Source of the DNA: a bacterium SCSIO 12827
GTDB taxonomy: Bacteria; Pseudomonadota; Alphaproteobacteria; Rhodospirillales; Casp-alpha2
Assembly (NCBI GenBank): GCA_024397995.1
Contig: CP073746.1
Span: 3,718,001 to 3,782,000, forward strand
Length of the DNA: 64,000 nt
Direction: 5' to 3'
Shown: in pieces, positions 47,974 through 51,500 of the stretch
How positions within the stretch are numbered: position 1 is the first letter of the stretch
Layout: the number at the start of each line of letters is the position of its first letter
The notes under the pieces: generated by a model
The model's input: the letters and a program-made list of their open reading frames with translations, nothing else
What the model was told of the DNA's origin: nothing
Database searches by the model: none
Translations under genes and position numbers: made by a program

Positions 47974-49932
47974 ATGGATTTAGGCTTGTTCAAGTTACCA
48001 AACCGCCGCATTCCGCCGAGAGGATGGATCGCCTACGGCCATGACATCTTCATGGCCGGACTGTCTTTCCCATTGGCCCTCTATCTGCGCCTGGGCGATG
48101 ACATATGGGCACAGCCGGCGGACATTATGCTTATTGCCGGGGTGTTTTTCACGGCCGCCGCGGCGGCGGTTTTCTATGTCGCCGGCCTGTACCGGGGCGT
48201 GTGGCGCTATGCGTCCATCAATGATCTGCTGTCGATCACCAAGGCCGTCAGCCTCGCGGTCCTGATCTTCCTGCTGGCCATGTTCATCTGGGTCCGCCTG
48301 GAGGATTTTCCCCGTTCGGTATTCGCCATCCAGTGGATTTTGCTGATCGGTTTGCTGGGCGGGCCGCGGTTCGTCTATCGCATTCTCAAGGACCGGTCCG
48401 CGTCGTCGCCGTTCCAGGCCGACAACGGCGAACGCATTCCCGTACTGCTGGCCGGGGCCGGGGACGAGGCCGAGCTGTTCATCCGCTCTCTCGCCGCGAC
48501 GGATCATCCCGAATACCGGGTCGTCGGCCTGCTGTCCGAACGCCCGGGCCGGGTCGGCCAATACATTCGCGGCATCGAGATCGTCGGCACCGTGCATGAC
48601 TTGGCCACCGCCGCCGCCCGGTTCACCGGCACGCCGGACCAGCCGCGCCGGGTCGTGCTGACCCGCCCGTCCATGGATGGCGAGATCGTGCGCGGCCTGC
48701 TATCGGAAGCCGAGCGCCTGGGCCTGAATCTGGCCCGCCTGCCCCAGATGACCGATTTCAAGGACGGCATCACCGACAAGCTGGACCTGCGCCCGGTCGC
48801 GGTCGAGGACTTGCTCGGCCGCCCGCAGACGCCGCTCGACCGGGACGCCATGGCAGCGCTGATCGAAGACAAACGCGTCCTGATCACTGGTGCCGGCGGC
48901 TCCATCGGCTCCGAACTGGCGCGCCAGGTCTGCCAACTGAAGCCGAAGAGCATTGTGCTGCTGGATCTGTCGGAATTCGCGCTTTACGAAATCGATATGG
49001 AGCTTTCGCGCAGCTTCCCCGCCATTCCGCGCCATGCGGTGATGGCCGACGTGCGCAATACCGACCACATGGCCCGTGTCTTCGCTGACCACCAACCTCA
49101 GCTGGTGTTCCACGCGGCGGCACGCAAGCATGTGCCGCTGGTCGAAGACAACATGGCCGAAGGCTTGGACACCAACGCCATCGGCACGCTGTGCGTTGCC
49201 CGCGCGGCGCGCGACGCCGGGGCCGCCGCCATGGTGATGATCTCCACGGACAAGGCCGTCAATCCGACCAGCGTCATGGGCGTCAGTAAGCGGCTGGCGG
49301 AAATCGTCTGTCAGGCCATGGATGTGGAAAGCCGCCGCAACAGCCGGGGAACCCGCTTCGTCACCGTGCGCTTCGGCAACGTACTGGGCTCCACGGGCTC
49401 TGTCGTCCCGCTGTTCCAGAAGCAGCTTGCTGCGGGCGGGCCCCTGACCGTGACCGACCCGGAGATGACCCGCTATTTCATGACCATCCGCGAGGCGGTG
49501 GAACTGGTCCTGTCCGCCTCGGCGCTGGGCGTGAAAAGCGACGCCGACGGGCGCATCTTCGTGCTCGATATGGGCAAGCCGGTGAAGATTGTCGATCTGG
49601 CGCGCCAGATGGTCCGCCTGGCCGGGCTGGTTCCCGACCAGGACGTAAAGATCGAATTCACCGGCATCCGCCCCGGCGAGAAATTGTTCGAGGAAATCTT
49701 CCACGGCGACGAAGCGCCGGTGCCGACGGTGCAACCGGGCGTGCTGCTGGCGACGCCCCGCCTGGTCACCCTGGCCGAAGTCGAGACCGCTTTTCGTCGC
49801 CTGTCGGACGCCTGCCACAAGGGCGACCTTGCCGCCGCCGCCGCCGTTGTCGATGCGTTGGTTCCCGAATTCAGCGGAACCATTGCCGCCCCCCCCCCCC
49901 CCCCCCAGGAAAAGAGAGTCGAACAAGCATGA
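47974..49932 (+). CDS. wbpM: WbpM/CapD-type nucleotide-sugar 4,6-dehydratase with poly-C-encoded C-terminal tail
   Basis: The 652-residue protein has four N-terminal membrane segments (residues about 15-125), a first Rossmann domain starting [14 protein letters not shown], and the catalytic domain from [19 protein letters not shown]. The active-site region reads [20 protein letters not shown], with Met where classical SDRs have Tyr, as in WbpM and CapD. It converts UDP-GlcNAc to the 4-keto-6-deoxy sugar for QuiNAc or FucNAc. Near the C terminus an 18-base C run encodes six prolines, followed by eight residues and a stop overlapping the purH start. A length change in that run would alter the tail without touching the catalytic domain. 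Confidence 0.9.
49889..49906 (+). repeat. Homopolymeric poly-C tract, 18 bases
   Basis: An uninterrupted run of 18 C residues lies in the last 15 codons of the wbpM-like gene, starting 40 bases before the purH ATG. In the frame given it is six proline codons. Runs this long are rare in GC-rich chromosomes outside contingency loci and are prone to slippage. It may also be an assembly-length estimate. Confidence 0.9.
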
Positions 49933-51500
49933 CCGAGCCGATCCGCCGCGCCCTGATATCCGTCTCCGATAAAACCGGCCTGGCCGAGCTGGGCGCCTTC
50001 CTGGCCGCCCAAGGGGTCGAGATTCTGTCCACGGGCGGGTCCGCCAAACTGCTGCAGGACGCGGGCGTGCCGGTCATCGAGGTATCCGACTTCACCGGCT
50101 TTCCCGAAATCATGGACGGTCGGGTCAAGACCCTGCAACCCATGATCCACGGCGGTCTGTTGGCCGTGCGCGCCAACGCGGAACATCAGCAGGCCATGAA
50201 AACCCATGGCATCAAGCCGATCGACCTGTTGGTCGTGAACCTGTATCCGTTCGAGGCGACGGTGGCCAAGGGTGCTGAATTCGACGACTGCATCGAAAAC
50301 ATCGACATCGGCGGACCGGCCCTGATCCGCGCCGCCGCCAAGAATCACGGTGACGTCACCGTGGTGGTCGATGCCGGCGACTACGCCAAGCTGATGGACG
50401 AGATGAGCGCCAACAAGGGGGCGACCACGCCGCAATTCCGCAAACAACTGGCGGCCACGGCCTACGCCCGCACGGCGGCCTATGACGCGGCCATTTCCGG
50501 CTGGTTCGCGGGTCAATTGGGCGACACCTTCCCGACCCGCCTGACCTTCGCCGGCGAACGGCGCCAGATTTTGCGCTACGGCGAGAACCCCCACCAGACG
50601 GCGGCGTTCTATGCCGGCGGCCCGACCCGGCCCGGCATCGCCACGGCGGAGCAGCTGCAGGGCAAGGAGCTCAGCTTCAACAACCTGAACGACACGGACG
50701 CGGCCTTCGAATTGGTCGCCGAGTTTGCCGATCAGCCCGCCTGCGTCATCGTCAAGCACGCCAACCCCTGCGGCGTGGCCTTGGGCGATGATCTGTTCGA
50801 CGCCTATCAACGGGCGCTGGCCTGCGACACGGAAAGCGCCTTCGGCGGCATCATCGCCGTCAACCGGCCGCTCGACGCCAAGACCGCCGAGGCCGTGGCC
50901 GACCTGTTCGCCGAGGTCGTCATCGCGCCGGCCATCGACGGCGGCGCCAAGGCCGTGCTGGCCGCCAAGAAGAACCTGCGCGTGCTGGTCACCGGCGCGC
51001 TGCCCGACCCCGCCGCATCCGGCATGACCGTGCGCTCCCTGGCCGGGGGCTATCTGCTGCAGGGCCGGGACGCGGGATTGGTCGGCGATCTCAAAGTCGT
51101 CACCAAGCGGGCCCCCAGTACCGCGGAAATGGCCGACCTGACCTTCGCCTTCACCGTCGCCAAGCATGTGAAGTCCAACGCCATCGTCTATGCCAAAGGC
51201 GGAGCCACCGTGGGTGTGGGTGCCGGGCAGATGAGCCGCGTCAATTCATCGCGCATCGCCGCCTGGAAGGCGCAGGACGCGGCCCGGGTCGCCGGTGACG
51301 CCGACAGCTGGGCGATCGGCTCCGTCGTCGCCTCGGATGCCTTCTTCCCCTTTGCCGATGGCCTGATGGCCGCGGCGGACGCGGGGGCCACGGCGATCAT
51401 CCAGCCCGGCGGCAGCGTGCGCGATGACGAGGTTATCGCCGCCGCCGACGAACGCGGCCTGGCCATGGTGTTCACGGGGATGCGCCACTTCCGGCACTAA
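49929..51500 (+). CDS. purH: Bifunctional AICAR transformylase/IMP cyclohydrolase
   Basis: The 523-residue protein is a full-length PurH. The IMP cyclohydrolase domain opens [19 protein letters not shown] and carries STGGSAKLL and [15 protein letters not shown]; the transformylase domain has [14 protein letters not shown] and the catalytic [11 protein letters not shown]. It performs the last two steps of purine synthesis in the cytoplasm. The ATG overlaps the wbpM stop (ATGA), and its ribosome-binding region (AGGAAAAGAGAG) directly follows the poly-C tract. An intrinsic terminator follows the stop. A housekeeping gene so tightly joined to a glycan gene is unusual. Confidence 0.97.

Follow-up and report, generated by a model that had tools for sequence, protein, structure and literature searches.

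An eighteen-cytosine run at the overlapping junction of a wbpM-like gene and purH in the alphaproteobacterium SCSIO 12827

The closest described counterparts of the locus analyzed here come from the epsilonproteobacterium H. canadensis and from N. gonorrhoeae and N. meningitidis, in which homopolymers act on the C-terminal ends of proteins or join neighboring genes. For H. canadensis, the published account reports C-terminal phase variation in eight coding sequences with homopolymers near their 3' ends, gives the NAD-dependent epimerase/dehydratase gene rfbB a G14 tract at its end with a range of 11–17, and names one case, HCAN_0660/0661, that might merge with the coding sequence that follows (PMC2823697). 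In N. gonorrhoeae, according to PMC5320596, two frames of NGK_1211 lead to differing C-terminal ends and the third fuses the protein to NGK_1212; the same paper cites pglB2 of N. meningitidis, which a poly-A tract fuses with the downstream phosphoglycosyltransferase gene.

The stretch of DNA analyzed in this study, referred to as the window, comprises 64,000 nucleotides (positions 3718001–3782000 of a single-contig genome of 3,933,246 bases). In it, a wbpM-like gene carries 18 uninterrupted C near its 3' end, the count of 18 being that of the assembly consensus, and purH starts on the stop codon of that gene (Table 1). The tract, its location in the last codons of the wbpM-like gene and the placement of the purH start are thus as the original prediction had given them. 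As read from this one genome sequence, the C18 junction is an anatomical match to C-terminal phase-variable genes: the repeat is close to the 3' end, over codons 639–645 of 652, and each frame specifies a distinct C terminus with the main protein intact, the dehydratase match stopping at residue 586. As in the H. canadensis set, three frames would give three C termini, with merger possible; as in the published NGK_1211/NGK_1212 example, two frames would alter the C terminus and the third would fuse the protein to the downstream coding sequence; and, as reported for pglB2, a glycan gene could be fused with its neighbor through a homopolymer. In contrast, the H. canadensis tracts are poly-G and vary in length in the sequenced population, whereas C18 is known from one assembly alone, is poly-C, and lies in an alphaproteobacterium (GC content ~64%, 200 kb measured) with a purine gene downstream and a 4-nt overlap. 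The length of the NGK_1211 tract is described as varying between gonococcal strains, with (G)6 and (G)7, and that gene encodes a membrane protein, not a dehydratase; in the pglB2 case as cited, both fusion partners act in glycosylation, unlike WbpM and PurH. Given these precedents in PMC2823697 and PMC5320596, the novelty originally claimed for placing such a tract at the very end of a dehydratase next to a purine gene is not supported. A literature search, with most subscription papers outside its scope, returned nothing on homopolymer phase variation in Rhodospirillales, homopolymeric phase variation of WbpM, a homopolymeric tract at purH, or the combination of a homopolymeric tract, translational coupling and phase variation.

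Table 1. Features of the wbpM–purH junction (positions are those of the window)
Feature	Position	Strand	Basis or remark
WbpM-like nucleoside-diphosphate-sugar dehydratase gene, 652 aa	47974..49932	+	PF02719 E 4.7e-110, PF13727
C18 tract	49889..49906	+	Ala639 codon bases 2-3, Pro640-644 (CCC x5), Gln645 base 1
AGGAAAAGAGAG, purine-rich, directly 3' of C18	49907..49918	+	presumed purH ribosome-binding region
purH, bifunctional AICAR transformylase/IMP cyclohydrolase, 523 aa	49929..51500	+	PF01808 E 7.1e-122; NF002049/PRK00881, TIGR00355
ATGA overlap, purH start on wbpM stop	49929..49932	+	8/8 genus genomes
TAA ending alternative tail (one C lost or two gained)	49970..49972	+	scripted frames

WbpM-like UDP-sugar 4,6-dehydratases are defined by an N-terminal nucleotide-binding (CoA_binding_3) region and a C-terminal Polysacc_synt_2 domain. 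The protein encoded upstream of purH has both, with PF13727 matching residues 71–215 and Polysacc_synt_2 matching residues 302–586, each over the Pfam cut-off, and the C18 tract lies more than 50 residues past the end of the latter match. The NCBIfam equivalogs PseB and FnlA matched this protein below cut-off only, and its substrate assignment stays general. PurH was assigned on full-length equivalog matches above cut-off, scoring 754.1 bits with NF002049/PRK00881 and 669.9 bits with TIGR00355 (cut-off 528, residues 6–523 of 523).

The reading frames through the tract were checked by a script in which its length was set to 10–24 C and translation was started at the wbpM ATG (47974). With 18 C, the WbpM-like protein has 652 aa and its stop codon ends at 49932. 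With 19 or 16 C, the frame is open past the purH ATG to 51500, which predicts a WbpM-PurH protein of 1175 or 1174 aa, and with 17 or 20 C, the stop codon ends at 49972, for a protein of 665 or 666 aa. The original prediction of a fusion on gain of one C or loss of two, and of an alternative stop at 49972 on loss of one or gain of two, was therefore correct except in the length of the alternative tail, which has 21 residues beyond the last proline and not 22.

The length of C18 is beyond chance. Across its 3.93 Mb, the chromosome contains 25 C/G runs of at least 9 bases; C18 is the longest, followed by two of 12, one of 11, five of 10 and sixteen of 9. A geometric tail fitted to the other 24 runs gives an expectation of ~0.002 runs of at least 18. 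Within the window, C18 amounts to ten overlapping 9-mers of C, a number that none of 100 dinucleotide shuffles reached (mean 2.08, maximum 9). An independent-base model gives ~0.007 runs of at least 18 but is a poor null, because it predicts ~188 runs of at least 9 where 25 exist; the genome as a whole avoids long C/G runs.

The arrangement of the two genes was compared among relatives. Of 61 genomes searched, 57 gave a match; 30 loci were taken, and 28 of these have wbpM followed by purH; the nearest named relatives among the matches listed are metagenome-assembled Rhodospirillaceae/Rhodospirillales genomes. Adding the best 80 of 587 further loci gave 110 WbpM loci (L031 and L032 repeat L002 and L005), of which 52 have purH no more than 400 nt from wbpM, with some loci ending soon after wbpM. 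The 4-nt overlap, in which the purH ATG (49929–49931) meets the wbpM TGA (49930–49932), is conserved in all eight genus genomes and is absent at that size outside the genus among the 110 loci (best 80 of 587 included), where two loci show overlaps of 7 and 10 nt with purH starts that are estimates. Among plasmid records, no near-identical junction was found: the 46 matches were all of 60–80% identity, and none spanned 80% of the query.

Stop-start overlaps of the ATGA type are associated with translational coupling, and by likeness to such systems purH may be coupled to wbpM. The purine-rich stretch next to the tract is presumed to be the purH ribosome-binding region, and a similar stretch is present in the nearest relatives. 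Predicted RNA folding at the purH start gave a mean unpaired probability of 0.48 over positions −22 to −6, compared to 0.37–0.76 in seven relatives, and of 0.56 for the ATG, compared to 0.42–0.76; a special RNA structure due to C18 was rejected since both values are inside the range of the relatives. In all eight genus genomes the purH frame is stop-free for 72–1338 nt 5' of the ATG. Because it is open upstream, a fusion would result in any of the eight genomes from a +1 or −2 indel anywhere within the final 24 wbpM codons. Judged from these frames, the predicted WbpM-PurH fusion would be a consequence of the overlap geometry, poly-C or not, and the idea that it is a special product of the tract is not supported.

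The tract itself was found to be far less conserved than the overlap. The eight genus genomes are separate species, and the pure tract is present in one of them alone. At the same site, G001 (CCCCTCCCCACTCCCCTC) and G004 (CCCCACCCCCTTCCCCTC) have interrupted C-rich stretches of 18 bases and G006 has a stretch of 12 bases with one T, while the remaining four genomes have no C-rich stretch there. In the comparison of tract length among relatives that had been proposed with the prediction, lengths of 18, 18, 18 and 12 (here, G001, G004 and G006) keep the frame in each case, and pure C occurs only here. The normal frame is present in 8/8 genus genomes and a shifted frame in 0/8, and the sequence of the WbpM-like tail is unconserved across the eight. 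Over the last 90 nt of wbpM, the longest homopolymer of this genome has 18 bases, and no homopolymer exceeds 8 in any of the other 107 loci (108 of the 110 loci, best 80 of 587 included, have a stop).

In the comparison with G004, 55 nt to the left and 117 nt to the right of the tract are identical (0 differences in 172 nt), and the tract differs at 4 of its 18 positions. With the rate taken from the low-divergence block around the tract (31/882), which was chosen after the divergence profile had been inspected, the probability of four or more tract differences is 0.003. The tract also differs at 4/18 positions from G001 and at 7/18 from G006, both of which are weak comparisons as the whole locus differs at 401/4956 sites (8.1%) and 732/4956 sites, respectively. 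These data suggest that the tract probably evolved faster than its surroundings with its frame preserved. Its equal length in three genomes is unlike free slippage, and substitutions or local recombination could account for it.

Our preferred explanation, to which we give a probability of about 0.6, is that C18 is a slippage-prone homopolymer in a dispensable proline tail, with the frame held by selection, and that it is tolerated rather than an evolved switch. We infer slippage as its cause, in that the homopolymer would have been expanded or homogenized, in this lineage, from a WbpM-like C-terminal tail that was already C-rich, proline-coding and poorly conserved. It would be tolerated because it is located beyond the catalytic domain, and the normal frame would be kept because the wbpM stop then falls on the purH start, allowing coupling, so that ribosomes terminating at the wbpM stop would re-initiate on purH. 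Changes in tract length probably occur at a low rate. The resulting variants would carry either a fused WbpM-PurH or an extended tail, and would be incidental and mostly counter-selected via the loss of well-coupled PurH.

An evolved contingency locus would be a different matter: frequent slippage of C18 would switch cells between coupled WbpM and PurH, the fused protein, and a state in which WbpM is extended and purH poorly coupled, and would thereby tune purine synthesis or surface glycan. The length of 18 is within the range of the varying tracts of H. canadensis (e.g., 12–20 G in HCAN_0457, G11–17 in rfbB; PMC2823697), and exceeds the (G)6–8 given for ispH and NGK_1211 in the C-terminal variation of N. 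gonorrhoeae (PMC5320596); both sources offer precedents for C-terminal switching with fusion. Moreover, the wbpM-like gene belongs to the surface-glycan class, and another of the longest runs in the same genome, a G12, is in a WbuZ/HisF-like gene (models below cut-off). Against this, the pure tract is confined to one of the eight genomes with no shifted frame in any, the mismatch-repair genes are intact, the RNA folding predicted for the purH start is ordinary relative to the seven relatives, and all frames leave the catalytic part of WbpM unchanged, so no on/off effect on the enzyme is expected. An evolved switch would be expected to show itself in genomes with a shifted frame, in a conserved tract or in some effect on the enzyme, and none of these was found among the eight genomes, with their single pure tract. 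We therefore consider the switch proposed in the original prediction to be unlikely. Very doubtful in our opinion is its most elaborate form, a three-position dial at the stop-start overlap in which slippage would toggle coupled, fused and uncoupled states and a glycan gene would set purine output in subsets of cells.

The other long runs of the genome were surveyed as well. Compared to the 25 runs of at least 9 here, there are 3 in G001, 2 in G002, 3 in G004, 4 in G005 and 8 in G006 (G003 and G007 being outside the comparison), and runs of exactly 7 number 217 here, 178 in G004, 172 in G006 and 103–129 in the others, a small difference. Across the order, C10 matches occurred in 34 of 41 genomes searched, with 196 overlapping matches in G046 versus 22 in this genome; since some genomes of the order have many more such matches, this genome is not exceptional in having long runs. 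The 24 runs other than C18 were compared with G004, and a counterpart was identified for 20 of them (none for L157, L159, L170 and L171), although for L146 only part of the run was aligned, L148 and L158 aligned poorly, and L145, L148, L152 and L153 were gapped. Thirteen gap-free runs of 9–11 bases are in long open frames (L141, L142, L143, L147, L150, L158, L160, L161, L162, L165, L168, L169 and L172), and all thirteen keep their length relative to G004, L158 with its poor alignment included; G004 differs at one run base in eight of them, at two in three and at four in two. Since length in this genome was the criterion by which the runs were selected, ascertainment predicts one replaced interruption. 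L153, which is probably intergenic, has 12 G here versus 4 in G004.

A 200-kb comparison (184,558 three-way aligned sites) showed no clear excess indicative of a general run-making bias up to run length 7. For run lengths of 1 to 8 or more, private changes to G/C numbered 911, 693, 270, 129, 44, 17, 3 and 3 in this genome and 970, 738, 278, 119, 41, 10, 3 and 0 in G004, with a hint of excess only at run lengths 6 and 8 or more, where numbers are small. Loss of mismatch repair as the origin of the long runs was rejected, since mutS and mutL are both full length, their open reading frames spanning 933 and 662 aa, respectively. The options are a greater readiness of long runs to expand in this lineage than in its congeners, or errors of the assembly at long C/G runs.

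The second of these options bears directly on C18, as a true C-rich stretch with interruptions like those of G001 and G004 might have been overwritten by C in the consensus through an assembly or base-calling artefact. The length of C18 equals that of the interrupted versions in those two genomes, and the pattern of an interruption lost with the length kept recurs at other runs, some of them at residues common to relatives, such as the change of VGGG to GGGG in the HisF-like protein (homologues of ~72–74% DNA identity, no match in G001 and G004) and the replacement of MAG by RGG following a CCG motif. The count of 25 runs, where the five congeners counted have 2–8, and the poly-C ends of other assemblies, e.g., of 55 C at the end of G007:C62, point in the same direction. 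The assembly, however, is a single contig and the tract is in frame, and the 13/13 gap-free open-frame runs have no length error relative to G004. Such unchanged frames argue against length errors, but leave overwritten interruptions unaffected. A single-base difference in 8 of the 13 is as ascertainment predicts, the expansion from 4 to 12 G in the probably intergenic run is no substitution artefact, ordinary run lengths have no clear excess of run-making changes, and genomes of the order with as many or more C10 matches indicate that long runs are not odd per se. On balance, we view an artefact as rather unlikely. For the tolerated, slippage-prone tail we counted the interrupted C-rich counterparts at the site (18 bases in G001 and G004, 12 in G006), the tract change against G004 with identical flanks, the frame kept at every tract length, the ATGA overlap in 8/8 genomes, the far shorter homopolymers of the other 107 loci, the survey of runs, the intact mutS and mutL and the unconserved tail; the equal length in three genomes, the weakness of the G001 comparison, the ascertainment of the runs and the null result of the 200-kb survey were counted against it.

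Several individual runs deserve description in their own right. The G12 run (G000:C1:3678056-3678067; L175:2057-2068) lies ~40 kb ahead of the window and within the first half of the WbuZ/HisF-like gene, for which both models were matched below cut-off, and the neighbors of that gene resemble, by eye, HisH and a sugar amidotransferase. Its motif reads GGGGL here and VGGGI in the homologues of three genus genomes, and it is a candidate either for on/off phase variation or for a sign of assembly error. Together with C18 it places two of the four runs of at least 11 in glycan genes, too few to speak of enrichment. A G9 run (G000:C1:3582642-3582650; L169:1501-1509) is in the CCG-motif gene, which encodes CCGRGGAFGY here and CCGMAGAFGY in G001, G004 and G006, with 3–4 of the 9 bases changed to G relative to these relatives. 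A C11 run (G000:C1:3092334-3092344; L176:1835-1845), which has an A inside it in G004, is near the start of a FecR-like gene whose neighbors resemble, by eye, a sigma factor and a TonB-dependent receptor; it is a possible candidate for 5'-end phase variation. Lastly, the 55-C run of G007 (C62:10907-10961; L123) is exactly at a contig end and is most likely an assembly artefact, and poly-C in draft genomes needs caution.

It is also conceivable that what matters is the protein and that the DNA run is a by-product. Ribosomes can stall at consecutive prolines in an EF-P-dependent manner, and the five prolines encoded by the tract could stall the ribosome just over the presumed purH ribosome-binding region, damping or timing re-initiation. 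The codon of the fifth proline closes at 49905, which leaves a single nucleotide up to AGGAAAAGAGAG and 23 nt up to the purH ATG, and at this site PPP is encoded in G004 and G006 and PP in G001 (DNA read by eye). The other four genus genomes, however, share the overlap yet have no adjacent proline pair in the tail, and we judge this explanation highly improbable.

With a tolerated, slippage-prone tail as the preferred explanation, the C18 junction now mainly illustrates the origin of tracts in dispensable tails and the latent fusions that arise from overlap geometry alone. If the tract slips, a GC-rich alphaproteobacterial lineage and a core metabolic gene would be added to the known range of C-terminal or fusion phase variation, and the idea that homopolymers serve as expression dials where coupled genes meet could be put to a clean test.
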